Shown here: positions 4,023 to 35,790 of the stretch, in pieces
How the letters are laid out: every line of letters begins with the position of its first letter
Numbering within the stretch: position 1 is the stretch's first letter
Origin: Apostichopus japonicus
Lineage: Eukaryota > Echinodermata > Holothuroidea > Aspidochirotida > Stichopodidae
Reading direction: 5' to 3'
NCBI RefSeq assembly: GCF_037975245.1
Contig: NC_092582.1
Location: forward strand, 15,712,077-15,776,076
Length of the DNA stretch: 64,000 nt
Translations under genes and position numbers: made by a program
The notes under the pieces: generated by a model
Database searches by the model: none
Told to the model about the DNA's origin: nothing
Seen by the model: only the letters and a program-made list of their open reading frames with translations

Positions 4023-7000
4023 ATGAAGATCAGCGTACTACTATTTGTGGTCCTGTTTGTGAGCCAAGCCTGGGCCAGAGGTAAACGGGCTGAGGCTTGC
4101 GTTACCTGTCCTGAAGGATGGACTTTCTGGGGAAGTGCCTGCTATCGGTAAGATAATTCACTAAAGTTTTCAAAACAAGCTGGCCGAGTATATCGAATTA
4201 AAGTAAACGTTGACAAATTGGGTCCAAAACCCGTAGGTGACCCACAGTTGGATGAAAATTTAACATTAAGGTGCGTATATACCGTATATTTTCCATATAG
4301 CCACAAAAGAATCTCGTACATTCAGGTAATTGATATATTTGATTGTTCTCAACATGCACCGTTCATGTAGATACACTCGAGCATAAGAAATAGGATCACA
4401 GTGCGTTTCTCCCATTAACGTCAGAAAATTTTAGAAAGGCTTAAAGGATTTGACAAAGGTTGTTCTGAGCTACTCAGTTGGTATATGTCAATCCCCTCCC
4501 TCCCTCACCCGCACCCCTCCCGCCCCACCCCACCACGGTGTCCGTAAAGGCCATAATATACCCCATCGTAACTTTGCGCAAATAGTCAGTTGTCAGTTGA
4601 GCCTGGTTGATCGTAAACTAGTATACGTTATATAGTGCAAGAGATGATATTGTCCTGAGCTCTTAACATATACATACTGGAATCACATACTTGGGATATT
4701 TTTTCTAATGCTATTACCACTCTATACCCTTCATCTCACATCCTGCCTTAAAGCACTCGTATACGGACAAGCGTGACCAGATCAATCTACATAATAACAT
4801 CAAAACTGCAGTATGACAGGTCCCCCCCCCCCCCGAAAGGAATAAGTGCGGTATTCCAGAACCTAGCATGGATATACTCAGGATGTGTTACCTGATTAAT
4901 TCGCAGATGACATTGCAAGGGTCCTACCTGTACCGCATAAGATTTATCACAGGGGTTCTACTCGTAATGTGTAAGGTTGGTATGTATACAAAAAGAACTT
5001 TATTTTAGAAAATATAAGTCTTCTGCCGTTCAAGCAGTTATCTTCTTTACATATATAGTTCCACATTTGTTTTCATTTAAAGCCAACTTACATTACCCCT
5101 ATCAGCATAATGGTACTGACCTAGACAGCTTCAGATACGTGGACTATTGTATCGGGGGTTACCAATTTCTGTGTTCAACAAAGACATCTTAACTACATAA
5201 TAGTATCAAGATTTACTATTTTGATAGTACCATGTAAAATTGTTATGTTACTTTGAATTTTAATCAACCTGTGGATGTTTTTTCTAACATTATCAAACAG
5301 TGCAGACCCTACGATTTTAATATAATTACAACCTTTCTGAGAAAATGACGGTCTAACCGTCTCTGGCCATAGGATATTTATTGACGAAGTCTTCGGCATT
5401 GAGTACAGTTTTTCTGTATGTGTTGCCGTGATGGACGAATCTAACGGTAACAGTAATTACCGACTTTGCGATGCGCGTTATAGTCATTGCCGACTTTTCA
5501 ATCCGTGGTCCTCCCTCACAATTTTGCGAGGTCGGTAAGAGTGACTCTATAGCTTTCCCTTTCGGGGAAAAATTCACACACTCATACTGCGCATATTGCA
5601 TTTACAAGTAAGTGCTGTGAAGCTTCACGTAAAAGTACATGATGTGCAGAGAATTAGTATTACATCTAATACTCTATCGTACATTTGCACCATTGAGTTT
5701 GAATGTCGACCAATAACGAATGTAAAGAATAGTTTTCTGGTTATATCAAGTACTGTCTGGTTGTATAAATTTACTGCCACTTGAAGTACTTTCTGGTTAT
5801 ATATATGTACTGTCAAGTACTGTCTGGTTTTATAAATGTACCGTCACTTGAAGTACTTTCTGGTTATATAAATGTATTGTTAAGTACTGTCTGGTTATAT
5901 AAATATACTGTCACTCGAAGTACTTTCTGGTTATATAAATGTACTGTCAAGTACTGTCTGGTTATATAAATGTACTGCCACTTGAAGTACTTTCTGGTTA
6001 TATAAATGTATTGTCAAATACTGTCTGGTTATATAAATGTACTGTCACTTGAAGTACTTTCTAGTTATATAAATGTACTGTCAAGTATCGAAATGTAAGG
6101 GTGCCATCAAAATATTCAAAATCATTATACTTCACATCATTATACTAGCAACTTTCGGCAAGGTGCTGAATTGTTCACTTTATATTTCCATAAACTGCAG
6201 AAAAGTGTCGAATTGACTATATACTTGTTGAGTTTAAACAAATTAAACAAATAAAATTGACAAACTACTCACCTGCCACGATCTTTGTGATTCAACAGTT
6301 TTCCACAAAATGTCCTCTTTAACTAGGTCAGTTTTGAAATTTGACAATTGGTACCGAATTGATCATTGATGAAAAGGGATTTGGTTAATTTAACATTTTG
6401 TTGCAAATGTTACAGAATAAGATATCCTGTCATTTTTTTTTAACAAACTCGTTTCTATGCTCACTTAACGTCAAATGAATAATTTATCATTTTGCAGGTT
6501 GCGGGTGAATGATGAATTGTTGAAATGTGAATGCAAAACATTTTGTCATATTTGCAACTAAATGAGGAGTTTATCACTTCATAAATCTACGGAATTGATA
6601 AATTTGTGGCAAATTGTTAGTCATTTGGTTGAAAAAATGCTAATAAACTGTACAGAGAGATCGGCACGACTGTAGTTAAATATTTTACATGCTCTAATGT
6701 CGCTAATTGATATCCTTAATATCAAAGTATACCAGGAGTAGGCCGGTGTATTCACCCTAAAAGCACAATCAAAATGGACGGTCGATAAAACCATTATTCT
6801 GACTATAACTACATTGTGAAATTAATTTAATTACAACAGAAGAAAAAGAAGGGTGTTTACAGGGTTAGGTCTATACGGACCAACTATATCGATGTTACTT
6901 GACAATTCTGAAGTGATTCTGAAAATTTTGAGAGTGGTGCTTGCAGTGTGCATCAATGAAAATTATGCAAATGATTGGATTGTTATCTAGGTGAATGACA

Positions 7001-14229: not shown

Positions 14230-15839
14230 TACAAAATGGTAATCAACTTTCACTTCTGATGAAAGAATAAGTTGCATTAGGGAAGTTACAATTCATTTCA
14301 AAAATATATAAATCAAACTTCTTTAAGTCAATTTCATCCTTTTGCTAATAGTCACTACATAGTTGTATTTTAAGGTATAATCCCCCCCCCACAACCCACC
14401 TGACCGCCCCCCCCCCGTCAGAGGTATACGTGGTTTCGCCTCTGCTTATTATGTCAATTGATAACTCGAGAAGAGTTTTTTCTTTCAATTAGAAAAAATC
14501 GTATCAAAGCAGTAAAAATGTTAAGAAACGTGGTTAGCTTAGTACGCCAGTTTAACAGTATCATTAACTGTTATAATATCAATCACTTTATAGTAATTCA
14601 ATCTAAAAAGAAATCAAGAAACCTCCAAGTGACATCAAACTATACTTGGCATCGATATTTAGTCATTAATGTTGAAACGGTTTTACATGAAACACAAATT
14701 AACCATGAGCACGATGACTTTACCATTATTTTGAATAACATGATTGGAATAATCAGCCCGATTTGTCAATTTTTCAGGAATAAATTGCTCTAAAACAAAC
14801 ATGACTAAAAACGATATATACCTTATGAATTATTCATGTTGGGTAGCATTTACACTTTTGTGGATATATGAATAAATTATTGGCTTATTTAAGTTTTAAT
14901 GAGACCAATATTTTCACCAAAAAAAGGAGATTGACAATCAATATAAACTATAAGGTCATAAACTTGCAAATAATATGACAGATGTTTTCTTAGAAATGCA
15001 AGCAGGTGTTTACTTTGATTAATTAGCACATTTAGTTTGGATACAAAAGCCAACATTTGTTATACAACACGCAACATATGTTCGTATAATGACGTTGTTC
15101 TTTGTCAAGGGTATCGAACATTAGAGGGAAATGGATAAGTATTTTTTTTTCACCAGTTTCAATGAACATTCTTTTAATGGCTTTAATAACACTGATAATC
15201 AGTTTAAATGCATCCTAAGACTTGAACAATAGAAAACAACCTCGAATCCACGGTTTGCCCATCTGAAACGGTTGCGTAGTAAAAGGAAGTCAATTTAGGA
15301 AACAGACGGGATGTTAAATTTGTTCATATCTCATATATTTCGGAGCACGACCTCACCAACTTCCATCCTTTATCAATCATAACGGGTTTTCTCTTTCTAA
15401 TTTACCTTGTTTCACATTTTAAACACGGTCCACTAATATACAACGGTCCCAACTTAAATAATCTATGCTCTCAGACGAGTTATATACTTACTATGTTAGC
15501 GTATAACACCACGACACGAGATATACCTTTGGTCAAGATGTAATGTTAGTGTAACTTTGACAAATGGTGTTTTGGAAGAGCTGTCAAGGGTAAGTTACGA
15601 TATAAAAACAGTATGTTGATAATTTTTATTTAGAATGCCTTTACCCAATACCAAACGTATCATATTCTACTAACAAATTAAAAGGGAAGTCTGTTTGCCC
15701 ATATTTAAAATGACTTGAAAATGGTGTAACATATCGGTGTCTACGACCCCGTCATCTCCTCTACCGTCACCGCACCCATCGCCACTCATCCCCATCGTCA
15801 GTCGGGAAAAATTCAAATAGCATAGACCTAACCATAGAC

Positions 15840-16065
15840 CTTATTTATAGTCTAAATCGGCTTCAGCATGCATCATTTGTCAAATGAACTTTAAATTTCT
15901 CTGGAGGAGGACCACCAGAAACCACTACATAGGAGTCCATTTGACAGATCTCAGGACCACACAACCTACTTTAGAAACCACTTGATTCGCATCTGGCCCT
16001 TCCAAAGGGTTCATGTCCCTATATAAATCAGTCGGCGATAGTTAGCATTCCACCCCCAACCCCCC
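15840..16065. repeat. Dispersed repeat, family also at 44.5-44.9 kb
   Basis: It shares blocks such as GGAGGACCACCA, CATNTGGCCCT and AATCAGTC with 44545-44935, in similar order and spacing. No termini or coding capacity were identified. Confidence 0.4.
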
Positions 16066-17302
16066 AACCCCCTCCTCCCCCAAACAAACATATACATCTT
16101 TTAAAATATTTTACATGCCAATGCAATTCATAATTGCACTGGTAAAATATTAAGGGGGGGGGGCATCGCTTTAATGTCCGTGAAGTACTTCATAGGGAAG
16201 CGGCTGACGGGAAGTTAGGGGAAATTAAATGAATTGAACAGATTCAGTGAAACTTTGGTTTTTTGAAAGCTGATTCTTGCAATGAGTTTGCTCTTAGCAT
16301 GATGTTTAGGATATTTTATCGAACTTTTCAATAGTATTAATGTAACACGCAGAGCAAATATTTGTTGCATATCATCCATTTCGCTATATAACAGCTTTTT
16401 GGGTTGATATTGACATAAATTTGATTTTATTCGATAAATTCCATAACAATGTGAAAGTGAGCACTTCAAAAAGTGAAGACGAATAGCTCTTGCAAATGAG
16501 TAGTTCAAGAAAGTATATTTTCCTATCAAATTCCTTTTAAATTTAAATTTTTTAGATTTCCTTTTAAAATTCTGATGCGTGCCACTTTGGCTTCCACATG
16601 AAAAGCTGGTATGGAACTGTGTCTGTGCGAAAAAAAAAACGAGAATTTGATTGAGTTCTCACTCATTACACTTCGCGTGATCAAACGTGTGCATGGCTTA
16701 GTTTGATAACTTTCAGACCTATTTTAAAAAGCATTCGGGAGATAATTTACCATCTGATAATATTTAAACTTCCGTCAATAATATTATCGTATCATAATCA
16801 AAATAATGATCTTTCCCATCCAGCTGACTTTTGACCAAAATTTACTGAAACCGTGTGATCTTATCTACGGATATACATACAGATACACTTCTACCTTGTT
16901 GACAGAATCTGACATATATATTAAACTAATTTAATGATATCTTAAATTAATAAAAAGATATCTTGAAATATTTAAAGGATTCTGGAATAAAGATCAACAT
17001 GGTTTGACATTATATACGGGACCGTATGCGCATGCATGGAGGCACGGAGGCAGCAGTATATACTCGGATAAATCTGACTTTTCTGCAATGATGCATCTAT
17101 ATCGCTAAATCATACAATTCTACAACGGTAATATGTAGGCTACAATAATGAACATGTGCGATGAACTGTTTGCTCCCAAAGAGCTATTTTAAGTCATTAT
17201 TTCATACTGTTTTATTGCTTTGATTAATGTGATGGATTCCAGTAACTCGTTTGTCTTTCTGTTTGATTTTTCTTCTTCTCTGTTTATTACTTAGTTTAAG
17301 CC

Positions 17303-17880
17303 TTAAAGGATTGGTTCAGGTGTTTGACATGTCTATTTTGTATAAAAGAGCACAAAAAGACAAAAAGAACAGTGAAGAAACTACCATGATAGCATGCTCT
17401 GCTAAGGAGATATGACACTTTGAAGATATCAAAATATCTTTGAAAACGACTGGTGTAGAAAGATTTACTGTGAGGGTGTGATGTCACATCCTCACGTCCT
17501 TAACATTTGTGAATATATTTCTTTAAAAATTATTTACATTTTTTAACACATTTGAAAATAATATAATCAAAAATTCTTCAGATGTTTAATCTCAATCATA
17601 CTTGCTTTGACAAATATGAGATCTCCTGACATATCTTTTGGTTGAAAGTCATGAAATCTCACAAAATATTTAGAGAAAAAACAAAGACTTTTCATGAATG
17701 TGAGGATGTGACATCACAGCTAGTCAGATTTCAGCAGTTTCTACACAATCTGATAAAACTTTACACTTGAATATCTCTTTACCGAAAAAGATATTTGAAC
17801 AGTTTTTTCACCATTGTGTTTATTTTATTGTCCTCTTTCATATAACATAAACATGTATGACAACTGAACCAACCCTTTAA
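17303..17880. mobile_element. Foldback MITE with TTAA target site
   Basis: It starts TTAAAGGATTGGTTCAG and ends in the complement of TTAAAGGGTTGGTTCAG, with TTAA at both borders. The interior is also self-complementary: GTGATGTCACATCCTCAC near 17478 pairs with GTGAGGATGTGACATCAC near 17700. The 578-bp element therefore folds into one long hairpin. The equivalent right-arm site (about 33541-33544) lacks it. A TTAA target suggests piggyBac- or Kolobok-type mobilisation. Confidence 0.8.
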
Positions 17881-18070
17881 AGAGATAAGAGATCTGGAAT
17901 TTTCTCATCACTCCCAACATTATACTTCTCTATAAGCAGAACGACTAACGAGGTGTGGTCTATGGATTCTCCACGAATTAAAATGGACGCGAAGTTTAAA
18001 AGGTGTGTTCAATTTGGACCAATCGCTCGTATCTGATATCCGTTTTAAGGTCATAGGAGTAACCATTCAT

Positions 18071-18155
18071 TTCCAATCTTCCTATTGGTGGTTTCATAAT
18101 ATTGAGCATTAGATCGATTCTGCCATTTTCTCCGGCGGAATACAACTTATATAAG
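18071..18155 (+). promoter_or_regulatory. Lectin B core promoter
   Basis: TTCCAATC and ATTGGTGG at 18071-18090 are followed by TATATAAG at 18148-18155, 107 bp before the start codon. The same order and spacing occur before lectin C, and a weaker form before lectin A. Confidence 0.6.
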
Positions 18156-18261
18156 GGAAAGACATGCACACATAGTATCATTTGGTTGCTCGTCTCCAAC
18201 AGAAAAGGCAGTTTTGAATAGAAACTTATTTCTTTCAACTTTGAGATTCTCATCACCGAAA

Positions 18262-21017
18262 ATGAAGATCGGAGTAACAATTCTGTTATTGTTCCTCGGC
18301 CTGGCCATGGTTAATGCTCGTTGGAAAGTTTGCAAACCTCACCCGGCACTTACCGGATGTCCTGGAGGATTTACCCGCTGGGGACGTGGTTGTTATCGGT
18401 AAGATCTTTAAGTAACCGGTAAAATAGTTTTCATTTTAATTGAACCTTTTCGCTAAATATTGAAAAAGGGTTGGGGGGTCACTTTCACTCGAACTCTACG
18501 TAACAATTGCACTCATAGTACTAAAGGTATGCTTCCGATCCTTGTAGTCTTATGACAAGTATGCTTCAAGGTATTACGAAATGCAGACTGCAGTGCAGAT
18601 CATAGCGTATTTTAATGATTCCACATATCTCACTTTTTAGGATAACAACAAAAATTCAAGGTTCATTTTTCACTAACAACTTCATGTACAAATATTCTTC
18701 ATTTATATTAGTAGTATTTCTACATTGTGAGATTGACGCCAAAAGTATACGCATTATCCTAAAGTAGCAAATGTTTCGAACGGTGTTGGTCGAATTTTAA
18801 TCACATCGATTGAATTCAATTGATTTGAAGAAGAAAAAAACAATCACTGAGTTTAAACATTATCATTATTATTTATTTTGAAAAAGAAACTATAAAACCT
18901 TTGCTTAATCACTTATTCAACAATGAACTGTTTCAATTAAGTACATTGACGGTAATTACCAGGGCTGTTTTTAAACAGAATAGCAAAACGAGCAACAACA
19001 AAAATAACCACAATAATAATAATAATAAATAAAAAAGAAAAGATGACGCCAAAAACGAACATTGGATTGAAAACCACTTGTGTTTTCGTCGTAACTTCTA
19101 GCCTAACCATACACAAGCCCAAAGTATTGTACAATGTATTGGATTAAATGTATAAATGAGAGCAAGACGTATTTTTTGGATTAATACTTCTGTAAGTAGA
19201 TAACAATAATGTTCCTTCATGCAACGAAAGGTATGTTTATTATGTTGACTAACTAACTTTGTTGATAGTGAAATGGCAGTTCTGTTCATTATATTACTAC
19301 TGTGTTACCCAGTTTTCCATTCCGTTGTAATCACTGTTTGTTACATATTTTACATATTGACATATACTCACTACGATTTCAATTATATATATCTTCATTT
19401 GCCGTTGACCTCTACTTCATGAACATAAAGTCTTTTCAAAGTATCTCTTTCGAAATCCGGCTTTAGGAATCACAAATGATTTCGAGTTGGGTAGCATCAT
19501 GTTTGATCTCTAGAGTAAGGCAAAATATGTCATCAAAAACAGAACTAGTATTGTTCGATACAGGTGACAAACGCCTACAGTGGAATTGCGACCTTCCTTA
19601 CAGGTTTCTAACCTCTGGACATACAATCAGCGTCCATATCCTAGTGGTTAGGGTGTCCGCACATAAAGCGGAAGGCCCGGGTTCGAATGACGGTGGAGGC
19701 TGGAAGTTTTTCACTGTTCTTGATTTTCCAACAAGTTACGATTTCAATTATATATATCTTCATTTGCCTTTGTCGTTGACCTCCATTTCATTAACATAAA
19801 GTCTGTTCAAAGTATCTCTTTCGAAATCCGGCTTTAGGAATCACAAATGATTTCGAGTTAGTTAGCATCATGTTTGATCTCTAGAGTAAGGCAAAATATG
19901 TCACCAAAAACAGAACTAGTATTGTTCGATACAGGTGACAAACGCCTACAGTGGAATTGCGACCTTCCTTACCGGTTTCGAACCTCTGGACATACAATCA
20001 GCGCCCATAGCCTAGTAGTTAGGGTGTCCGCACATAAAGCGGAAGGCCCGGGTTCGAATGACGGTGGAGGCTGGAAGTTTTTCACTGTTCTTGATTTTCC
20101 AACAAGTTACGATTTCAATTATATATATCTTCATTTGCCTTTGTCGTTTTACCTCCATTTCATTAACATAAAGTCTGTTCAAAGTATCTCTTTCGAAATT
20201 CGGCTTTAGGAATCACAAATGATTTCGAGTTGGGTAGCATCATGTTTGATCTCTAGAGTAAGGCAAAATATGTCATCAAAAACAGAACTAGTATTGTTCG
20301 ATACAGGTGACAAACGCCTACAGTGGAATTGCGACCTTCCTTACCGGTTTCGAACCTCTGGACATACAATCAGCGCCCATAGCCTAGTTGGTTAGGGTGT
20401 CCGCATATAAAGCGTCGACTCAAAATCCCTTTTGGGTACGCTCTTTAACTTGTTTCCTTCTTTCTCTTGCTTTCGAACATAGATATTTCCCCCAGAAGTA
20501 TAATTGGGTTACCGCTGAACGTTACTGCAACCATTTTAGACAAACTAGAACTCGAAGAGTCAACAGAGCTCATCTTGTCACTATCGACTCTGCGAGGGAG
20601 AACAACTTTATATTGAATTTCTGGAGAAGGCGACGCGGTAGAAATACGGTATTATAAATATTGCACTCTTTTATATAACTATCAGGAAAATTACGCTTGA
20701 TTGTAAACACAACATAAAAATTGTTTTCATTGCATTGATGTCAAAAAAAATATAGTGACCAGATGTTAAAAAGTTTTATTTAATCAGGTGGTAACTTTCG
20801 CCATATTATGAAACCTATATTAGCCTTATATGAGAAATAAAGCCAGCAATATTGTTTACGTTATTTTCAATACTATCATAATGTCTATTATTGTTCCCCT
20901 TTGTTTTGTGTTTTAGGGAGTTATTTATTGATTGTTTGATGTTGTTGTTGTTTTCGTTGTTTTGAAGGGGTGGGTGGGGGAGGGGTTTTTTTTCGTTGAC
21001 GCAATTGAAGGCAATGC

Positions 21018-21104
<87 letters not shown>

Positions 21105-21605
21105 TACACAATGGTACAGAATAGTAACTTCCAATTTTATCTCCTCTTCCCACTGCAACTTGGTTTATTGCACAAAAAGATAGCACAGCATTCCCCCCCC
21201 CCCCCCCCCGCCCAAACATGGTCTTCAGTGACCTATGCCCGATAACATCCATGGAAAATTCACAGTGAAACACAATCACACAAGTAAGAGTGGCTCTTCA
21301 CACGCTACTACGGTGCATTGAACTCAAAAGAGTTGAAAACCACAGTTAGAACATAAGTATACTATTCTACTTTCTTTTTACAGGCAGTATGGATCGGCTT
21401 CCACGATAGAGTACATGAAGGCAAATTTATCACACCAGGAGGATGTCTTGCTACATACAGATTTTGGGACAAGGGCGAGCCAAATAATCTGCACGGAGAA
21501 GATTGCGCGACCATGTGGAAAACCCACCGCAATAGGGATAACGGTGCCTGGAATGATCTTCGTTGTACAACCGGGTTGGGTTTCATCTGCAAAATAAGCC
21601 TCTAA
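18262..21605 (+). CDS. Secreted C-type lectin B (three exons)
   Basis: Exons are 18262-18398, 20483-20648 and 21384-21605, with GT-AG borders; phases 2 and 0; 174 aa. The signal peptide ends near VNA (residue 19). The single C-type lectin domain has CPGGF, RYC, the WIGL-like VWIGF, EPN in FWDKGEPNNLHGEDC, and WND, ending ICKISL. Eight Cys are present; one (KVCK) is N-terminal to the domain. Exon 2 ends in a strongly basic run, FWRRRRGRNT, absent from lectin A. EPN suggests mannose/GlcNAc-type sugars. The start is set by the signal peptide and by the CGAAAATGAAGAT context shared with lectin C. It is the left-arm partner of lectin C. Confidence 0.92.
19366..20412. repeat. 371-bp tandem repeat containing a SINE, in lectin B intron 1
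   Basis: CGAAAT anchors at 19451, 19822 and 20194 give a period of 371-372 bp. One partial and nearly three further units are present. The last is cut after CCGCATATAAAGC, only 70 bp before the exon 2 acceptor. Units are almost identical, so the array is young. It is not present in lectin C intron 1. Confidence 0.9.
19630..19800 (+). repeat. tRNA-derived SINE (copies within the 371-bp array)
   Basis: A pol III A-box-like TAGCCTAGTGGTTAGGG and a B-box GGTTCGAAT lie about 43 bp apart, followed by an unrelated tail ending in TA repeats. Copies are at about 19630 (A-box variant), 20003 and 20375; the last is truncated before the B box. The tRNA of origin was not determined. Confidence 0.7.
20967..20985 (+). 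other. G-quadruplex motif
   Basis: GGGGTGGGTGGGGGAGGGG lies in lectin B intron 2, close to the (AT)n tract and about 400 bp before exon 3. Confidence 0.6.
21021..21102. repeat. (AT)n microsatellite
   Basis: About 41 uninterrupted AT dinucleotides in lectin B intron 2. A run of about 18 C follows at 21192. Confidence 0.95.
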
Positions 21606-21764
21606 GTCCATCAGATTGTAATGTTGATGATAGGTTAAACTAAGAATATGGAAAAAAGTGCCCCTATCTTCATTCTGCCTGGATATCATATCTTTGGAAA
21701 ATCTTGTTTCTTTTCTCTGCAGATTATAATATGTATAATTATGGTTGTTAGCTTATGCTCGGTT

Positions 21765-21770
21765 AGTAAA
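21765..21770 (+). terminator. Lectin B variant poly(A) signal (AGTAAA)
   Basis: At the position of AATAAA in lectins A and C, lectin B reads AGTAAA, a known weaker variant. The surrounding 3'UTR is conserved. Confidence 0.45.
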
Positions 21771-23290
21771 TCCAGTTTTCCCTTACACTTGCATTCCTGT
21801 ATTGCATGGGACGTTGGACCCCCCTCCTATTGTTAGAGTACCTCAAAAGTGTCCATTTTTATCAAATTTAAGTGCCCCCTTCTTAGAATGATTGTAGCCT
21901 AACCTTTTCTATTTAATGTAATGAAACCAGTGTCTTTTTTAGTATTTAAAAATGTGAAATTCCGTTGTGAGTTTAGGCAGACTGTATTTAGACGATAACG
22001 GTAGAGGGAAAATGCTATCAATTCGGTGAAAAAAAAAGGAAAAAAAGGAGAGAAAAGGCAAATTCCATGATGCTGCACGAACCTATCAAACACACTTACA
22101 AACATTCCTGTCGTTCTTAATAAATATACGGTAACCATTGAGTGCCTAGAGTTTCTTTTAGGTTAGCTCAGGTTTAAGGTTTCGTAAGTACCTGTAGTGT
22201 AATAACCTCCTTGTAATTGTATTCCCAATGTTTTTTTTTTCTTCTTCTGATTTTATTTTTTGGTGCAATGTCAGTGAATTGTTCACACACAACTGTGAGT
22301 TTACAGTGGGTATGCTCAAGATCATATGATTTCTGTTTGCCCACAAACATAATCCAAAACTTGTAACAAGATAAACGAAGTCATAATATATATAGGGAAG
22401 GAACATAAAGTATCAAAATCGATGAGGTTTCTTAAAGTATTTCAAACTGTCTACTTTACTATTGTGTGCTTACACAGTGAAAACTATTTCGAAGTCTGTG
22501 ATTTCACGCACCTTATTCTAGCTTCATTTTGTTATTTAAAGGCCACCAGTATTTGCGTGTCCTGCATGCTACTGCATGTTGAAATGACTGATAACTCAAT
22601 TTACAACCTAACTCGGCGAATGGTGTCCCTATCTGACAGCTTTATAACTGAACACTTGCTAATGTCAACCACGGGCAAACCTCTTTTGGGAAGAATATAT
22701 ATTAATATATATAGAAATCTTTAGAGAAAGTTAAATTTTGGAGAAAGGTAATCTCTAACGCGTAGTTCATCTTGACAAAGTTTGACATTACATATATCAC
22801 ATTCTCCACTACATTAAAGGACTTAATTAACAGTGATGACAATACACGCAGAAAAATATGATTTCTACTACAGTTACAAAACATTTCCGTGATTAACTCA
22901 TTTTAAGGTTCAACAATTTTTCAAAAGTTATGTTTATAAAGTTCTCTAAAGAACGATTTCGTAACAATTTGTAAGAACCAGAAAACAACAGCGTCTATTT
23001 AAAGGTGGTAGAATACATCTTCTTTCCAGTTGCATAACTAATATTCTCTGTTTGTTGTTTTTCTCTTCTCATTTTCAAAGAAAGAAAGTAGATAACTGCT
23101 TAATGGAAAAATATAATACGAATAATAAACCTTTGTATCCTATACTGACAACTAGTTTTGAGGTACTGAAGTTTTCGTATTCAGATGGTCGCCTCCACCC
23201 CGTCCCCACACCCTCCTTTTATAGTTTGGAACTCTTACTGGAAGAGAACTAAAGTATTAAATTATTTTCTCTATCTCTTTTGATCTAATG

Positions 23291-24330
23291 TTAATTAACG
23301 CTTTCGGTCTACGAATATTTTCATTTTCAATACGCATTAACAAGTCTTTGACAGCTTTAGTAGAACACATGCCCGCGGACCTCACTTTGCCCATCTGTAC
23401 TTATAAACCCATCCCCAAGGCACGTACTCATTGAGTTAATCATCCGTTTACCCCCGCCCCCCAACCCCCTTCCACCCTTCTTACCCCCACCCTCTCTGAC
23501 GAAAACAATTGGCGCCCTTTAAATCATCGCATGGAGTTATGATGTACTTTGAATTTGTTCGTACATAATGAAGTGAGTGCTTCATGATTTGTCCAGTGCA
23601 GTGCTGAAATTAAAGGGGCCTACAACTTGAAGAAATTGACCAAAAGTCACGAACGTGCATCGTTTGACATGTAGATTGGAAGGATCCGGAAGTGACTTCA
23701 TTTTATTACTTTTTCGAGACTAAATCTTCATAGCAACACACTATTTGATAGATTAATAGATATGACAGTTACAAATTATAACGGTATGATATGAATAGGT
23801 TATACGAGACATATCCTCTCAGAGCACACATTAATTGTAATCTATAATTCACTTGTAGGAGATCATTTAACACAAGTGTATTGATAGGCACTCTTGTGTA
23901 TGTTTGATTTGCTGGTATAGCGTATAATTCAGTTTCTTAAAAAAAAATAAAAAAAAATAAAAAACTATTTTCAAGAATGGAAATTTATCCCAAAAGTATA
24001 GTGCGGTTTATTATGGACATGGCAAAATTAATTTCAATAAAAAAACTTCAAAAGAGTTAAAATGTGGACATTAAAAGTGGAAATGTTGAGTTTGAACTCG
24101 GAAATTTCGACGAGTAAATAATAATAAAAATCAGCAGTTATTTTTACGACCGTTTAAGCGACCACAACTGTTGGAGAAACCCGGAAGGTCTTATGGGATT
24201 ACATCTTACACGTCGGGTGGCTTCCATTTCAACATTTTAACTCAAATTTGGAATCTCTTCAATTTAGAAAGTCATTTCAGGTGGGAAAACTGTAGATTGC
24301 TCTTGGATAGAAAAGCTATCTTACTATATG
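23291..24330. other. Spacer between inverted arms, no gene seen
   Basis: AT-rich with C-rich tracts (23450-23500). No domain, RNA or transposon ends were recognised. Confidence 0.5.
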
Positions 24331-24425
24331 ACCCGGCCGGGCATAGAACCAGTAACCTCCCGATTGCTAAGCCTCATTGCTTCAAATGCCACCGCCTTTA
24401 TCCACTCTCCTGCAGCACCGGTAAG
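24331..24425 (-). repeat. tRNA-like (SINE head) sequence
   Basis: On the minus strand, GAGTGGATAAAGGCGGTGGC resembles a class II (Leu/Ser-type) A box. About 40 bases later comes GGTTACTGGTTCTATGCCCG, a decayed B box and T arm. The acceptor stem does not pair well, so this looks like a SINE head, not a working tRNA. Confidence 0.4.
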
Positions 24426-25289
24426 ATTCAACATTCCGACTTAATGTGAAAATTGTGAGATTAAAAACAAAATAATGTCGCGAACAAGTGTCAAATTTCG
24501 ACTTTCAAATTCGATATTTAATGGAGAAGTATGGATATTTTAAAGATGCAATTTTTTGGATTAAAAGTCAAACTTTCGAATTTTAAGGTCAATTGTATTT
24601 AGAATTAACTTCATACCCCCCCCCCCCCTCCTTGTTTTACCATGTCTTTGTCATAAACCACCGTATATAAGTTGTGTATATGTTGCGCCTGCATGGAAGA
24701 CAGCTCTATGATCAAATTGAACACGAATCGCAGAAAAAGTGTCGTATTATTTCCGAGCATGATTCTTTTGGTTTCCCAACAGGGCTAAATATGGGGTCAC
24801 TCATATCGACCATGCACACTTTTGAGGGGGGGGGGGGGGGCAATGACTATAACGCAGATCGTCAGTAAGTACTATTACGGTTAGATTCGTCCAACACGGC
24901 AGCAAACAGAAACACAGCACTCAAAGCCGAAGCCAAAGTGAGTTAATCAAGTCACACATCCGGAGGCTATGCATGCTAATTTCTTCAATACCGCCCTCAT
25001 TACCTTTCGGGGGGAAACATTTCATACTGTTGTTTTGATTTCATTTGTAAAGTTGGACACACGTGTAGCAGGTGCAGCTTGCTTTATAAACAACATGGAG
25101 AAACATGTATTAAAGTAAGTTAGCTGACATGTTTCACAAAGAAAGGTTATGATTTCTTAAGTAACCCACACATCAAAAATATTGCTTTTAGTGCTGCAGA
25201 CCACGGCAATTGCCTTGATTTCAAAATAGTAATTATTTTGAACGGAACGTAATGATAACGTATACCCTACATAGTTGCAAATGGATATT
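24426..25289. other. No gene seen
   Basis: AT-rich spacer with homopolymer runs of C (24616) and G (24826). Confidence 0.5.
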
Positions 25290-25422
25290 CGTTAAACTAT
25301 CATTTATACCCAGAGATCATCTTTGTTGAGTACGTTCCTACTCCCCCCCCCCCCCCACGTTAAACTATCATTTATACCCAGAGATCATCTTTGTTGAGTA
25401 CGTTCCTACTCCCCCCCCCCCA
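25290..25422. repeat. 68-bp tandem duplication
   Basis: Two copies start CGTTAAACTATCATTTATAC at 25290 and 25358. Each ends in a long C run, and they differ mainly in run length. Confidence 0.95.
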
Positions 25423-25676
25423 CCCCTCCTTGACTTCTTCACAAAAGGTTCACATTGGCTCCTTGGCCTCATCAAGTCGACAATTATACATTTGCTACAT
25501 TTTTTGGCCAGTAGAAAACTTTGCTGAGGGTCTTGGTCCTATTTTGGAGAATGATATTTTCAGAGTAAATATTTTTTCTAAAGAGGCCGAGTTTGGTAAA
25601 ATCTTAAATTCGATAAATTTCCAGCTAACCGCTATACTGCAGTAAGGGAACAAACGTATATAAGACACGTACCTTA

Positions 25677-27249
25677 CAATAATCAGAAGTAAATATCCAC
25701 AAGGGTGTTGTTTTGCTTCCGTTATATAGTCACCATTCGAATTTCCTGTAGACATAGCTGTATAATCAGAAGTAAATATCCACAAAGGTGCTGTTTTGTT
25801 TCCGATATATAGTCACCATTCGAATTTCCTGTAGGCATAGCTGTATAATCAGAAGTAAATATCCACAAAGGTGCTGTTTTGTTTCCGTTATATAGTAACC
25901 ATTCGAATTTCCTGTAGGTATTACTGTATAATCAGAAGTAAATATCCACAAAGGTGCTGTTTTGTTTCCGTTATATAGTCACCATTCGAATTTCCTGTAG
26001 GCATAGCTGTATAATCAGAAGTAAATATCCACAAAGGTGCTGTTTTGTTTCTGTTATGTAGTCACCATTGAATTTCCTGTAGGTATTGCTGTATAATCAG
26101 AAGTAAATATCCACAAAGGTGCTGTTTTGTTTCCGTTATGTAGTCACCATTCGAATTTCCTATAGGTATTGCTGTATAATCAGAAGTAAATATCCACAAA
26201 GATGCTGTTTTGTTTCCGTTATATAGTCACCATTCGAATTTCCTATAGGTATTACTGTATAATCAGAAGTAAATATCCACAAAGGTGCTGTTTTGTTTCC
26301 GTTATGTAGTCACCATTCGAATTTCCTGTAGGTATTGCTGTATAATCAGAAGTTAATATCCACAAGGGTGTTGTTTTTTCCCGTTATATAGTCACCATTC
26401 GAATTTCCTGTAGGTATTGCTGTATAATCAGAAGTAAATATCCACAAAGGTGCTGTTTTGTTTCCGTTATGTAGTCACCATTCGAATTTCCTATAGGTAT
26501 TGCTGTATAATCAGAAGTAAATATCCACAAAGATGCTGTTTTGTTTCCGTTATATAGTCACCATTCGAATTTCCTATAGGTATTACTGTATAATCAGAAG
26601 TAAATATCCACAAAGGTGCTGTTTTGTTTCCGTTATGTAGTCACCATTCGAATTTCCTGTAGGTATTGCTGTATAATCAGAAGTTAATATCCACAAGGGT
26701 GTTGTTTTTTCCCGTTATATAGTCACCATTCGAATTTCCTGTAGGTATTGCTGTATAATCAGAAGTAAATATCCACAAAGGTGCTGTTTTGTTTCCGTTA
26801 TATAGTCACCATTCGAATTTCCTGTAGGTATAGCTGTATAATCAGAAGTTAATATCCAAAAGGGTGCTGTTTTGTTTCCGTTATATAGTCACCATTCGAA
26901 TTTCCTGTAGGTATTGCTGTATAATCAGAAGTAAATATCCACAAGGGTGCTGTTGTGTTTCCGTTATGTAGTCACCATTCGAATTTCCTGTAGGTATTGC
27001 TGTATAATCAGAAGTAAATATCCACAAAGGTGCTGTTTTGTTTCCGTTATATAGTCACCATTCGAATTTCCTGTAGGTATAGCTGTATAATCAGAAGTAA
27101 ATATCCACAAGGGTGTTGTTGTGTTTCCGTTATGTAGTCACCATTCGAATTTCCTGTAGGTATAGCTGTATAATCAGAAGTAAATATCCACAAGGGTGTT
27201 GTTGTGTTTCCGTTATATAGTCACCATTCGAATTTCTTGTAGTATTGCT
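25677..27249. repeat. 83-bp minisatellite, about 19 copies
   Basis: Each unit contains TATAATCAGAAGTAAATATC; anchors at 25761, 25844 and 25927 set the period at 83. A four-unit block of 331 bp is repeated: its diagnostic AAAGATGCTG variant starts near 26198 and again near 26529. It sits at the centre of the inverted duplication. Confidence 0.95.
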
Positions 27250-27857
27250 GCAAGCCAGTTAACGGGTCATATTGCTAAGCGTTCTGGACTACTCATAACC
27301 CTTTTTTAAAGTCTATTAATACACGTCTATACTACTTCATATGGAACATTATGAAAGGATGATGAACAATTGCACATTGTCAGTAAGAATAATAACGACG
27401 GTAACTATTGCTGATAAATTGACTGGGTTCTCCAATACCCATTTACATGATTAACTTAAGACTCATTGAGTAACGTGTTGTTTAAAGTGAGGCTATAAAA
27501 GGCATCCCAGTAATGGTATAAAGAGAATTAAGTTAAGTCCTATTGAGTTGCAGAATGAATTGGATATACAACCTGAAGTCGTAGACATTCCGTGACTAGA
27601 TCAAAGTTTATTAGATGTATTCAACGGATAGATCGACCGCATACTTACAAACTGTTTAAAACAATAATCAACTAGGCCTATTGTTAATGATCAACAGATC
27701 AATTTGGCTGTAAGAAGCAATTACTCCCTGTTCAATCTGAGCTCCAATGAAAACGATCCATACGGGGAATAACCAACTTGACAAACGGTTCTTGAGAAGC
27801 TCCATAGCTTCCAAAAGAAATTTTGGCTCAGATCGTTTGCAGTTTAATGTTCCCCCT
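27250..27857. other. No gene seen
   Basis: AT-rich sequence between the minisatellite and the U2-associated repeat. Confidence 0.5.
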
Positions 27858-28232
27858 TCTAGGGGAATCGTGGTACACACCTGACGATGATCAAACAGTC
27901 ACAGTCTCGATGCAAGGGGACTGGGGTTGAGAGCGGATCAGTCGGGTTTTTTTCGTGCCCAGGTTCTTTCCTTGGTGACTTTTCTTGAAAAGTGCCATTT
28001 GGTACTACCAGTGCTCATGCAATGAAGTATGTAGCTTCTCGGCCTTTTGCCTAAGATCATGTGTAGTATCTGTTCATTTCTTAGGGGAATCGTGGTATAC
28101 ATATCTGACTATGATCACACAGTCACAAGTCTCCATGCAAGGGGACTGGGCTTGCGATTAGATTAGTATAGTTTTGGTTGTTTGGTCATCGTGCCCAGGT
28201 TCTTTCTTGGGTGACTTTTCTTTTAAATGGGA
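27853..28232. repeat. Two copies of an unidentified ~140-bp unit
   Basis: Copy 1 (about 27857-27990) and copy 2 (about 28082-28222) share AGGGGAATCGTGGTA, GATGCAAGGGGACTGGG (first A/C variable) and CGTGCCCAGGTTCTTTC, then GGTGACTTTTCTT. I could not match the unit to a known snRNA or SINE. A U2 head directly precedes copy 2. Confidence 0.7.
28031..28076 (+). pseudogene. U2 snRNA 5'-end fragment
   Basis: GCTTCTCGGCCTTTTGCCTA, then AGATCATGTGTAGTATCTGTTC, matches the first ~45 nt of U2 snRNA (stem I and the branch-point region GTAGTATCTGTTC) with a few substitutions (GGC to GCC in the loop, CAAG to CATG). Homology ends before the Sm site and 3' stems, so this is a truncated U2-derived sequence and not a functional gene. 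Confidence 0.8.
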
Positions 28233-28510
28233 CCAGTTTACAAACGCTTGATTGCAGTGCACTTGTGGGAGAGGGGATGGGGGGGGGGGTTGTTGATAAA
28301 GTACATGCATTTCAGAGTGATTTTATCGGTACGTATGGTGATATACATACATTTTATTCTCTTATATATATACCTCAGAAAATAATTTTAAGAAGCGATT
28401 CCAATACCTGATGAAGGCCAAATACTAAAAGCAAGAATTGAAAAACAGCGGCAAAATTTAAAATATTTTCGCCATTGACTCAGATTTGTGGTATTTGACT
28501 TCACCCAGTT

Positions 28511-29219
28511 ATGTGCCACTTGACTTGACTCAGGTACGTGGGACTTGACTCGGGTACGTGGGACTTGACTCGGGTACGTGGGACTTGACTCGGGTACGTG
28601 GGACTTGACTCGGGTACGTGGGACTTGACTCGGGTACGTGGGACTTGACTCGGGTACGTGGGACTTGACTCGGGTACGTGGGACTTGACTCGGGTACGTG
28701 GGACTTGACTCGGGTACGTGGGACTTGACTCGGGTACGTGGGACTTGACTCGGGTACGTGGGACTTGACTCGGGTACGTGGGACTTGACTCGGGTACGTG
28801 GGACTTGACTCGGGTACGTGGGACTTGACTCGGGTACGTGGGACTTGACTCGGGTACGTGGGACTTGACTCGGGTACGTGGGACTTGACTCGGGTACGTG
28901 GGACTTGACTCGGGTACGTGGGACTTGACTCGGGTACGTGGGACTTGACTCGGGTACGTGGGACTTGACTCGGGTACGTGGGACTTGACTCGGGTACGTG
29001 GGACTTGACTCGGGTACGTGGGACTTGACTCGGGTACGTGGGACTTGACTCGGGTATGTGGGACTTGACTCGGGTATGTGGGACCTGACTCGGGTATGTG
29101 GGACTTGACTCAGGTATGTGGGACTTGACTCAGGTATGTGGGACTTGACTCAGGTATGTAGGACTTAACTTGACCAAGGTATGTGGGACTTGACTTGACT
29201 CAGGTATGTAACACTTGAC
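28511..29219. repeat. 20-bp minisatellite with 25 perfect copies
   Basis: CGGGTACGTGGGACTTGACT is repeated without change from 28551 to 29050. One CAGG variant precedes it. Afterwards come three CGGGTATGTG units, then three CAGGTATGT(G/A) units, then irregular remnants. Confidence 0.98.
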
Positions 29220-30258
29220 TTTGGATGGGTCTAAGCACAGGTGCATGGGAAAAAGCGGCCCGCGGGCACGTTTTAGGCTCCCCAACAGAAAGCTTTCTAA
29301 GACATGTTAATACATATTGAAGAAAGGGATATATTCGTAGACCTTTGTGAGGACGCTGTTAGTTGTTTGTGGGCAATGTAGGTTATTTTAAGGAAAGTAT
29401 TTAATAGATTTAAAAGAGAGAGAGAGAGAGAGAGAATAATTTAATACTTTAGTTCTCTTCCAGTAAGAGTTCCAAACTACAAAAAAGTAGGGTGCGGAGA
29501 CAGGGTGGAGGCAACCATCAGAATACGAAAACTTCAGTACCCTAAAACTAGTTGTCAGTATAGGATACAAAGGCTATTATTCGTACTATATTTTTCCATT
29601 AAGCAGTTATCTACTTTATTCATTGAAAGTGAGAAGAGAAAAACAACAAATAGAATTATGCAACTGGAAAGAAGGTGTATTCCACCAAATTTACCATTGA
29701 CGTTGTGGTTTTCTGGTTCTTACAAGTTGTTACGAAACGTTCTTCAAAGAACTTAAACAAAACGTTTAAAAATGTTGAACCTTAATCACGGTAATGTTTT
29801 GTAACTGTAGTAGAAATCATATTTCACTGCGTGTATTGTCATCACTGTTAATTAAGTCCTTTAATGTAGTGGAGAATGTAATACATGAAATGTCAAACTT
29901 TGTCAAGATGAACTACGAATAAGAGATCACCTTTCTCCAAAATTTAACTTTCTCTAAAGATTTATATATATGTTTTCTTCCAAAAGGGGTTTGCCCGTGG
30001 TTGACATTAGGAAGTGTTCAGTTAGAAAGCTAAAAGCCGTTATAGTCTAAATACAGTCTGCCTAAACTCACGACGGAATTTCACATTTTGGAATACAAAA
30101 GAGACACTGGTTTCATTACATTAAATAGAAAAGGTTAGGCTACAATCATTCACACAAAGGGGATCTAAAAATTGATAAATATTGACATTATTGACTTACT
30201 TTAACAATAGGAGGGGGTGCCGCCCCACGCAATACAGGAATGAGAGTGTAATACTAGA

Positions 30259-30264
30259 TTTATT
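30259..30264 (-). terminator. Lectin C poly(A) signal
   Basis: AATAAA on the minus strand, 160 bp after the lectin C stop codon, in the conserved lectin 3'UTR block. Confidence 0.6.
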
Positions 30265-30423
30265 AACCGAGCAAAAGCTAACAACCGTAATTATACATAT
30301 TATAATCTGCAGAGAAAAGAAACAAGATTTTTCAAAGATTTGAGATTCATGCAGAATGTATAAACAGGCACTTTTTTCCATATTCTTAGTTAGCCTATCG
30401 TCCCACATTACAATCTGATAGGC

Positions 30424-33152
30424 TTAGAGGCTTATTTTGCAGATGAAAGCCAGCTTCGTTGTACAACGAAGATCATTCCAGGCACCATTATCCCTATTGT
30501 GGTGGGTTTTCCACATGGTCGCACAATCTTCTCCGTGCTGATTATTTGGCTCACTCCTGTCCCAACGTTTGTATCTAGGAAGACATCCTCCTTGAGTAAC
30601 AAATTTGCCTTCGTGTCGTTTGTCGTTGTAGCCGATCCATACTGCCTGTAAAAAGAATGTAAAAAAGTATACTTATGTTCTAACTGTGGATTTCAACTGT
30701 TTTCAGTTCAATGCATCGTCGTAGCGTGTGAAGAGCCACTCTAACTTGTCATTTCGTATATTTGATTGCGGGATTCCGGGGAATGTTACCCCTGGACCCC
30801 CCCCCCCCGAGAAATGTTTTTTCTTCCTCGGGATTTTAACTCGCTAGGAACGAGTTAGAAATATTAAAATCATCTAAAATATTCCAAATCTGCCGAATTG
30901 GCGATGACGTTGGCTCCTCAGTACAGGGGGGCTTAAATGTTAATGATAATCCATTGTTTATAAATTCTAGTAACTAAACCAAACCATATGAATAACAAAG
31001 TATCATTTGATGGCATATTCAATATATATCGTTTTATGTTTATGTTTTAATACATTGTAAACATGGTATTTGAGACCATAAACGTCTTACGTTTTGCCTC
31101 TGAGGAACTGACCTAATGACCTGTAGGTTAGACTACCTCGTCCAGCCGCTTTCATTGATGATCCTCGGACGTTTAAATGGTCATTTCGCAAGATATTAAA
31201 AGTGGTCCAGAAGTGCATGATGGACTTATTGCAGTAATTGCTATATAGCGGTCTTTAACATAACCAAATTAATTTTGTGTCTAAAAAACACCATTAAAAC
31301 AAAAGAAAAACACTAACTAAATCATTATTTTGAGGGATATGAAATGCTTTTTGTCTATTTCTTCATATTGAAAATGACGACATGCATGATCAAGTTTAAG
31401 CTGACTTTGTAGATATGTAGATATAATGACAGTATTGAAGGTTAAATAAGGTAAGGACTATTGCTGGCTTTATTTCTCATTTAAGGCTAATACGGGTTTC
31501 AATAATAAGGCTGGTCATAATATTGTTGTGATATCCAGTACAAAGAACATAATTTATATTTTGTGTTTACAATCAAGCGTAATTTTCCTGATAGTTACAT
31601 CGAAGAGTACAATATTTAGAGAGTACCGTATTTCTACCGCGTCGCCTTCTCCAGAAATTCAGTAAAAAGTTGTTCTCCCGCGCAGAGTCGATAGTGACCA
31701 GATGAGCTCTGTTGACCTTGTGAGTTCTAGTTTGTCTAAAACGGCTGCAGTAACGTGCAGCGGAATCCCAAGTACACTTATAGTTAAAATATCTATGTTC
31801 GAAAGCAAGAGGAAGAAAGGAAACAAGTTAAAGAGCGAACCCAAAAGGGTTTTCGAGTCGGCGTCATTTGTTATTCTTCGATATTAGGGACATAATCGTT
31901 CTCTCATTAAGTGGTACAATCAGAAGAAGTAAGAGCCACATCTTTCCAATGTGAATAGGACTGACAATCCGAGTAAGTACAATCTTATGAAGATGTAGGA
32001 TATTGAGCATGGACTTTATAGGAAATACGTTAGCATTATATATATTAAATAAATGGATGAATGAAAATAATAAAAATGTTTCCTGTATATACAGGATCTA
32101 CAGTAGTAATAAAATGAACAGACCCGCCATTTCACTATCAACAAAGTTAGTGTTGATCCACTGTACTAGTTGTCAACACAATTCTTTCATACATTTCGTT
32201 GCATGAAGGAACATTATTGTTATCTACTTACAGTAGTATTACTCCAACACGCCTTGCTTCCATTGATTGTAACATTAATCCAATACATTGAACATTACTT
32301 TGGCTTGCGTATATTTAGACTAGATGTTACAATGTTATCAAAACTGGCGGTCAATCCCACTTTCTTTGGAGTCGTTCTTTTATTTTGTTGTTGTTGTTCC
32401 TCGTTTTGCTAGTCTGTTAAATAGCCCTGGTAATTACCGTCAATGTAATTAATTGAAACACGTCATGTTTAATATGTGGTTCAACAAAGGTTTTATGCTT
32501 TCTTTATAAATTATAAAATTTCAGGGGAAAAAAAACGATAAAAATCGGAGATTTTCTTTTTTTAATTCAATCGACTTAAATCGATGTGATTTAAATCGAA
32601 CCACACTTTTCCAAACATTTCCTACTTCAGGATAATGAGTATAATTTACGATGAAATGCTCCATTAGAGCGCGTCAGTCACACAATGTAGATATAGTACC
32701 AATACAATAAAAATAATATTTCTACATGAAGTTGTTAGTAGCCTAACAAGTCAAGAGACACGTGTAATCAGTCAAATGTGATATGATTTTGTACCAAATA
32801 TACTGCAGTCTGCATTTTGTAATACCTTTAAGCATACTTGTCATACGAGTAAGAGGGTCGGAAGCATACCTTTAGTACTACGAGTACAATTACAACACAG
32901 AGTACGAGTGCAAGTGACCCTCCTTTTTCCATAATCCGCGAAAAGGTTCATTTAAAAAGTAAATAAAACAACATCTTACCGGTTAATTGGAAACTACAGT
33001 CAAAAATCTTACCGATAACAACCACGTCCCCAGAGGGTAAATCCGGAGGGACATCTCCTGCGCGAACCTGGACGTTTCAGGAAAGTCCTCCAATGAGCAT
33101 TAACCATGGCCAGACTGAGGCACAAGAACAGAATTGTTACTCTGATCTTCAT
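30424..33152 (-). CDS. Secreted C-type lectin C (three exons)
   Basis: Minus-strand exons are 33152-33013, 31792-31627 and 30645-30424, with GT-AG borders; phases 2 and 0; 175 aa with no frameshift or stop. Signal peptide cleavage is expected after VNA (residue 19). The mature N-terminus is basic (KRPGSRRRC). The domain has CPSGF, RYC, VWIGY, EPN in RSEPNNQHGEDC, and WND, ending ICKISL. It lacks lectin B's upstream Cys (KVCK) but gains one in exon 2 (YKCTW), so both have eight. Exon 3 differs from B at 16 of 73 residues and exon 2 at 12 of 55, mostly in its first half. The FWRRRRGRNT run is kept. Both inverted genes look functional. Confidence 0.92.
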
Positions 33153-33260
33153 TTTCGGTGATGCGAAAGTCTCAAGTTGTAAGAAATAAGTTTCTATTCA
33201 ACGCTGCCTTTTTTGTTGGAGACGAACAACCAAATGATATACTGTGTGTGCATGTCTTTT

Positions 33261-33341
33261 CTTATATATGTTGTATTCCAGAGAGGAAAAAGAAAGAATC
33301 GATCGAACTCTGAATATGAAATCACCAATAGGACGATTGTA
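33261..33341 (-). promoter_or_regulatory. Lectin C core promoter
   Basis: TATATAAG on the minus strand at 33268-33261 is 109 bp before the start codon. An ATTGGTG element at about 33323-33330 is upstream, as in lectin B; the CCAATC copy has become ACAATC. Confidence 0.55.
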
Positions 33342-34802
33342 AATTAATGTTTACTCCAATGACCTTAAACGGAGTAGGCAATACATACACGATCAAAAAT
33401 ACGAGCGAGTGGCATATAGCCATCCCTTGTAAACTTCGCGTCCATTTTAATTCATGGAGAATCTATAGACCACGTCCCGCTTAGTCGCTCTGTTAATAGA
33501 GAAGTATATATTGGAAGAAATTTCTAGATCGCTTATCTCTTTTAGGCTCAAACTAAGTAACAAAAAAAGAAGAAAGAAGAACAGAACCGATAGAAACACG
33601 AGTTACTGAAACCATCACATTAAAACAAAGCAATAAAACAGTGTGACAGAATGAAATAATGACTTACAATAGCTCTTGGGGAGCAAACAGTCAAAGGCAC
33701 ATGTTATGTACCGTAGCCTACATATTACCGTTGTAGCTTGGTATGGTTTAGTGAAATATATGCATCATTGCAGAAAAGTCAGACTCAACCGAGTGCATAC
33801 TGTCTCCGTGCCTCCATACATGCACCAACAGTCCCGTATATAATGGCAAACCATGTTGATCTAGTTTCTGGAATTCAAGATGTCTTTAAATATTTCAAGA
33901 TATGTTTAATTATTTAAGATAAAATTCATTTAATTTAATATATGTGCCAAATTCTGTCTAAAAGGGTGAAATGCATGTGTATCTATTTGTGTATAAGATC
34001 ACACAATTTCAGTAAATTACTTCAAAAGTCAGCTGAATGGGGAAAAAACATTTGACTATGATACGATAATATTATTGACGGAAAGTTAAATATTATCAGA
34101 TGGTAAATGAAAGTTTCCTAATCTCCCGACTGTTTCTCAATAGGACTGGAACTTATCAAACTAAGCCATGTACACTTTTTATCACGCGAAGCTTAATGAG
34201 TGCGGACTCAATCAAATTCTCGCTTTTTTTTCTCGCACAGACACATTTCCATACCAGGCTTTCGTGTAGAAGCCAAAGTGAGATGCTTCAAAATTTGAAT
34301 TCATTAAAATTTAAAAGGAAAATGTACTCTCTCGAACTACTCACTTTCAAGAGCTATTCGTCTTCACTTTATGAAGTACTCACTTTCACATTGTTATGGA
34401 ATTATCGAATAAAATCAAATTAATGCCAATATCAACTCAAAAACTGCTGTATAGCAACATGTATGATATGTAACAAATAGTACCATGTATGTTACATTAA
34501 TACTATTGTTAAAGTTAAAGTTTATTGTCAAATGATGCATTCTGAAGCCAATTTAGACTATAAATAATGTCTATATTTAGGTCTATGCTATTTCATTTCC
34601 CCGACTGACGATGGGGGTGAGGGGCGATGGGTGCGGTGACGAGAGGGTAGGGTGATGATTGGGGAGGGGTTGTGGTTACCCATATGTTCACCAGTCTAAG
34701 TCAAATATAGGCATACAGACTTCCGCTTTATTTGTAAGTAGAATATGATACTTTTGGTCATGGGTATGGCATTTTAAAGGAGATCAAAAACATACTGTTT
34801 TA

Positions 34803-35162
34803 CAAGGGCGTAGGAACCGGGGGGCTGGGGGCGCCAGCCCCCCCCCCAGTGAAAAATGTGGAGGGGCGGAAGTATCATTCCGCCCCCCCCCCCCCGCTTC
34901 GGCAAGTCAGAAAACCCCTTTTTCATTTCCAAATGAGAAAAAAATCTCATTTGGAGCACCAAATTGCATCTAAGGCCAGGTGAAAATGCAAAATTATATA
35001 CAAAATGAGTGGGTGGGTTGAAGTGTGCTATATTGCACCAAATTGCATCTGAGGCCACCTGGAAATGCAAAAAAAATCCAAAGTGGAGGGGGACACCCCC
35101 TCCCCTTAGACCCCTCCCCCAGGCCGGCCATCAGTCTTCAGCCCCCCCCCCACTCAAAAGTG
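34803..35162. mobile_element. hAT-like MITE in the right arm
   Basis: The 360-bp element begins CAAGGGCGTAGGAACC and is flanked by perfect 8-bp duplications CTGTTTTA (34795-34802 and 35163-35170). The matching left-arm site near 15601-15612 is uninterrupted, so this is an insertion after the duplication. The interior has G/C runs and two copies of CACCAAATTGCATCT. Confidence 0.8.
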
Positions 35163-35790
35163 CTGTTTTATATAGTATATTACACTAAATAATACTTCCA
35201 AAACACCATGTGTCAAGATACATTAGCATTTTGGCCTTGTATCCAAACTAAATGTGCTAATTAATCAAAGTAAACACTTTTGCTTGTTTTTCTAAGAAAA
35301 CATCTGTTGTATTATTTTCAAGTTTATGACCTTATATAGTTTATATTGATTGGTATACTCCATTTTGTTGTAAATATTGGTCTGGTAAAAAGTTTAATAA
35401 GGCTTTATTTTATTCTTATATCCACACATGGTGCAATGTTACCCAAATAAAATATTCATGAGGTATATATTGTTCTTATTTCATGTTTGTTTTAGAGCAA
35501 TTTATTCCTGAAAATTTGGCAAATCGGGCTGATTATTCCAATCATGTTTATTATAAAAATATTTTTGTTAAATATGGAAAAGTAAACGTGCTCATCTTTT
35601 AATTTGTGTTTCAAGTAAAAGTTTAAACCGTTGTTTTGAATGACTAAATATTGATGCTGAATATTGTTTCGTGTCACTATGAGGTTTTTCATTTCTTTTT
35701 AGATTGAATTACTATGATCGAATCATGTTTACATTTTCAACATTTTCTATCATCACAAGTGAAAGTGGATTGCCATTTAATGAGCTCTAT

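Follow-up and report, generated by a model that had tools for sequence, protein, structure and literature searches.

An old inverted duplication of a C-type lectin gene in the sea cucumber Apostichopus japonicus

Two C-type lectin genes of Apostichopus japonicus, here called B and C, face each other within a window of 64,000 bases (the whole stretch of DNA that was analysed), each in one of two arms that are reverse complements. Inverted DNA duplication is a known route of gene family growth, and the B/C pair is a real, old lectin duplication of this kind, ordinary in itself. The locus is a clear case in the lectin family of an invertebrate and includes an insertion younger than the event, and its best interest lies in a second inverted duplication within the same family. 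Very probably the pair arose as an inverted segmental duplication long ago and both genes were retained, an account that overlaps with two of its rivals, tandem duplication followed by inversion and gene conversion between the arms.

Inverted arms

A self-comparison of the window, proposed as a check in the preliminary description, shows the anti-diagonal and confirms the inverted duplication claimed there. Seven main minus-strand blocks pair 14,590-23,278 with 35,715-29,423 in collinear order, each covering 305-1,541 columns and scoring 244-894 bits (E of 8.7e-65 or lower). Small additional blocks occur at the outer end (14,234-14,274 with 35,778-35,738) and at the inner end (23,306-23,358 with 29,343-29,289), and together they delimit the arms listed in Table 1. 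The arm ends given earlier agree with these to within about 110 bases or better, the inner ends having been stated to 0.1 kb. The arms mismatch at 13.0% of 4,767 aligned ungapped sites (K80 0.143); outside these sites, each arm consists of insertions or unalignable DNA. Twenty shuffles of arm C, a rough control in which pairs of bases were moved, gave best scores of 25.6-31.9 bits against arm B. Among ten 8-kb pieces drawn at random from the genome, nine had no inverted repeat of at least 300 columns, and the remaining one was a 22-bp satellite throughout. An extension of the arms to 8.4-8.8 and 36.6-37.1 kb was rejected because 8,429-8,773 is a dispersed repeat, with 1,283 first-look candidates in the genome, the best 40 of which were scored.

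Table 1. Coordinates of the duplicated arms, lectin genes and repeats in the window
Feature	Position	Strand	Details
Arm with gene B	14,234-23,358	+	collinear minus-strand blocks against 29,289-35,778
Arm with gene C	29,289-35,778	-	collinear minus-strand blocks against 14,234-23,358
Spacer between arms	23,359-29,288		5,930 bases
Lectin gene A	4,023-9,738	+	exons 4,023-4,147, 7,700-7,865, 9,517-9,738; 170 aa
Lectin gene B	18,262-21,605	+	exons 18,262-18,398, 20,483-20,648, 21,384-21,605; 174 aa
Lectin gene C	30,424-33,152	-	exons 33,152-33,013, 31,792-31,627, 30,645-30,424; 175 aa
423-bp stretch	15,899-16,321		arm B only; arm C continuous (junction comparison)
Element of about 570 bp, inverted ends	17,309-17,878		arm B only; dispersed in genome
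371-bp satellite array	19,366-20,414		intron 1 of gene B; TRF
636-bp stretch	22,002-22,637		arm B only; single copy in genome search
83-bp tandem array, 19 copies	25,679-27,250		TRF; matched only here in genome search, which can miss repeats
20-bp tandem array, 32.5 copies	28,522-29,170		TRF; matched only here in genome search, which can miss repeats

As in an inverted segmental gene duplication, the reverse-complement collinearity runs through coding and non-coding DNA, and the introns are common to both copies, which argues against retrocopying. The alignable parts of intron 1 mismatch at 15.5% (896 sites) and those of intron 2 at 12.5% (304 sites). The likeness described for the promoter region is also borne out, the proximal 5′ flank (17,879-18,261) being common to both arms with 13.4% mismatch. 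K80 amounts to 0.151 in the distal and 0.148 in the proximal 5′ flank, 0.184 in exon 1, 0.174 in intron 1, 0.132 in exon 2, 0.137 in intron 2, 0.139 in exon 3, 0.130 in the proximal 3′ flank and 0.082 in the distal 3′ flank. Eight of these nine site classes thus lie between 0.13 and 0.18, and the whole segment was therefore copied.

Elsewhere in the window, an uninterrupted stop-to-stop frame of 1,874 codons occupies 46,308-51,932 (+), with a strong A-over-T skew and no Pfam match at E 0.001. By eye, two frames at 258-1,725 (-) resemble LINE reverse transcriptase and two at 58,187-59,931 (-) resemble a pogo/Tigger-type transposase.

Lectin genes of the cluster

The exons of B and C measure 137, 166 and 222 bases and 140, 166 and 222 bases, respectively, and their intron phases are identical. 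All introns are GT-AG and the frames are open, in keeping with the earlier view that both genes are intact with clean splice sites. Both products match Pfam Lectin_C (PF00059) above the curated cut-off of 22.6 bits (B, 60.5 bits, E 3.1e-16; C, 63.8 bits, E 2.9e-17). EPN and WND are motifs of the calcium and sugar site of these proteins; in an alignment of A, B and C read by eye, both motifs and the core cysteines are kept in B and C. Directly after the EPN motif, B has L where C has Q, and each protein has an extra cysteine at a position of its own, residue 24 in B and residue 53 in C. Judged by the general structure of the C-type lectin family, these two changes could alter sugar binding or chain pairing. 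Exon 3 is identical at 57 of 73 residues, and a recount of the other 16 gave the number reported before.

A third complete gene, A, lies at 4.0-9.7 kb on the plus strand and makes the locus a small lectin cluster. It was recognised by a tblastn match, has EPN and WND motifs and a spliced translation free of stops, and its DNA likeness to B is confined to the surroundings of exon 3 (246 columns, 73.6%). Gene A, the stretches specific to arm B and the second duplication on C1 (both below) were missing from the preliminary finding, which was right about the duplicate pair; the names B and C used there suggest that its reader had seen gene A.

Sequences confined to arm B

Comparison of the junctions identified four stretches in arm B that lack a counterpart in arm C. 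The element of about 570 bp is bounded by inverted ends (17,303-17,382 and 17,801-17,880), and arm C is continuous at this site. Its best 39 other copies among 608 first-look candidates are full or nearly full length and 96-97% identical. Because these relatives are so much more alike than the arms, with their 13% mismatch, the element was inserted after the duplication.

The 371-bp satellite forms arrays on many contigs, with 89-93% identity among the listed matches of at least 700 bases, and arm C has 236 other bases opposite the array of gene B. Elsewhere in the genome these arrays often advance in steps of 746 bases and lie near (TA)n runs. The 636-bp difference may equally be a loss from arm C.

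The spacer

The spacer does contain two tandem arrays, as had been described, but they do not fill it: tandem repeats with a period of at least 10 cover 2,407 of its 5,930 bases (40.6%). The further suggestion of a fragile or repair-prone centre is unsupported, because two of ten randomly drawn 8-kb genome pieces contain 41% tandem repeat or more, because the spacer of the C1 pair is free of arrays longer than 250 bp (such arrays are present in one C1 arm), and because the arms share no identical run longer than 53 bp, a length at chance level that 625 of 2,000 shuffles reach. The two arrays are most plausibly incidental. Also in the spacer, at 24,117-24,423, is a dispersed repeat some 300 bp long; its best 39 other copies, from 40 scored of 6,632 first-look candidates, are 87-91% identical.

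Divergence, selection and relationships

Over the whole coding sequence, B and C differ by a dN of 0.151 (bootstrap 0.109-0.197) and a dS of 0.253 (0.157-0.373), with dN exceeding dS in 2.4% of codon bootstraps. Purifying selection on the two genes, as estimated from these codons, would be weak at best, because coding dN is about as large as intron divergence. For exon 3 by itself dN is 0.117 and dS 0.240, and 8.4% of bootstraps have dN above dS. These values, and an exon mismatch that resembles that of the flanks, do not show positive selection on this exon. Faster evolution of one copy was rejected: when A serves as outgroup, the unique residues of exon 3 number five in B and three in C, with 11 unique bases in each, although in the protein tree the branch of B (0.22) is longer than that of C (0.079).

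An exon-3 tree of 21 rows (A, B and C with 18 lectin matches picked from 150 rows; 74 columns) places B and C as sisters with support of 82/87 and gene A with four C15 genes (88/84); support is strong for three of its 18 inner branches only. Two lectins on different chromosomes, L027 (C1:9.743 Mb) and L031 (C23:4.231 Mb), differ at one of the 68 exon-3 residues read.

A second inverted lectin duplication

Lectin neighbours less than 100 kb apart usually share a strand (29 of 33 pairs with an 8-kb merge), and four pairs are opposite. Three merge settings gave 24-31 same-strand pairs against the same four. The counts derive from 100 of 150 lectin rows with E up to 0.01 (the 50 weaker ones were dropped), with rough merging of exons and scoring of the best candidates. 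Two of the four opposite pairs are inverted DNA duplications: B/C and a pair on C1 at 9.859-9.916 Mb. For the other two (C1 8.874/8.881 Mb and C15 0.945/0.998 Mb), the pieces compared, 9.5-10 kb each, have no similarity at the DNA level. This count concerns lectins only and does not imply an excess over other gene families.

Like B/C, the C1 pair consists of convergent lectin genes in inverted arms, here about 17-18 kb long (C1:9,859,157-9,876,074 against 9,897,351-9,915,711). Unlike B/C, it has a QPD-type exon 3, is younger, and has a spacer of about 21 kb without arrays above 250 bp. Its arms align in eight blocks, seven of them 88-96% identical and the outermost 82%, with a mean mismatch of 5.6% over 15,671 sites. 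Divergence along one arm runs from 1.7% to 8.5%, and none of 500 shuffles yielded so low a 1,000-site window. The lectin entries of this region are L013, L014 and L033-L037 (C1:9.855-9.919 Mb).

Taken together, the B/C and C1 pairs suggest the testable idea that the lectins of this economically important echinoderm expand repeatedly by inverted duplication. In its full form the proposal is rather improbable: inverted duplication would be a recurrent growth mode of sea cucumber lectins, the arms would exchange sequence, and convergent pairs would become mosaics, with sugar-site exons that diversify and flanks that stay similar in places.

Origin of the duplication

In the proposed sequence of events, a segment of roughly 6-9 kb would have been duplicated in inverted orientation, copying one C-type lectin gene with its introns and both its 5′ and 3′ flanks, perhaps through DNA repair or template switching. 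The outcome would be the convergent genes B (+) and C (-), clustered with gene A. Arm B would later have gained the 570-bp element and the 371-bp satellite. Both genes are probably still functional, as predicted from their sequences, and their products may be secreted lectins of the EPN type that bind sugars and differ in residues around the sugar site. That the innermost 640 bp are less diverged may stem from later copying between the arms or from local constraint.

An alternative course, in which a head-to-tail tandem duplication was followed by local inversion of one copy, is unlikely. Most lectin neighbours share a strand, which makes tandem copying the common mode in this family, and gene A (+) stands beside B in just such an arrangement. 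However, the inverted likeness spans exons, introns and both flanks, for which a single inverted event is the simpler explanation, and the C1 pair is built in the same way. Inverted repeats are a recognised source of misassembly. An assembly or haplotype artefact is scarcely credible here given the 13% mismatch, the many indels, the arm-specific insertions and a window without a single N; the earlier judgement that the divergence is too great for a haplotype artefact holds on the same mismatch and arm-specific stretches. The published A. japonicus assembly is, moreover, based on HiFi reads with a contig N50 of 17.20 Mb, according to the available part of its description (PMC10344927).

Gene conversion between the arms, which would have kept part of the segment alike, is a doubtful but real possibility alongside the inverted duplication. 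The innermost block (22,638-23,278) differs at 47 of 606 sites, against 573 of 4,161 elsewhere (Fisher P 1.8e-5), none of 2,000 B/C shuffles contained so low a 600-site window, and the uneven divergence of the C1 arms points the same way. Yet block and window sizes were picked after the data had been seen, local constraint or rate variation predicts the same pattern, and a genome search with the non-coding flank gave no copy beyond these two with which to root the comparison. The chance-level length of the longest identical B/C run also speaks against conversion; a palindrome with conversion-maintained arms is marked by near-identity or long identical runs, and here the mismatch is 13.0% and the longest run 53 bp.

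Comparison with known lectins and duplications

In the PDB, B and C both match CEL-I best, with modest scores of 72.7 and 79.1 bits. Like B and C, this sea cucumber protein (PDB 4wqq, 1wmy) has a single C-type lectin domain. MBL-AJ and AjGBCL are described A. japonicus lectins, the latter with an EPN motif, in the portions available of PMC4232515 and PMC8713890. A 27-base AjGBCL primer from the available text of PMC8713890 has one exact match in the genome, on C8, in a search allowing at most one mismatch, and its backward control has no match; AjGBCL is therefore most likely a different gene from B and C. In literature searches on sea cucumber lectins that are expanded or duplicated, in tandem or inverted form, none of the titles or opening lines of abstracts that came up concerned this locus, and the word "lectin" does not occur in the available text of the assembly paper (PMC10344927).

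Inverted pairs of young genes have been described in Caenorhabditis elegans, where newborn duplicates often lie at adjacent loci in inverted orientation, according to the accessible part of PMC2728529. The B/C tract differs from these in being old, with its 13% mismatch, and in comprising a whole gene together with its flanks.
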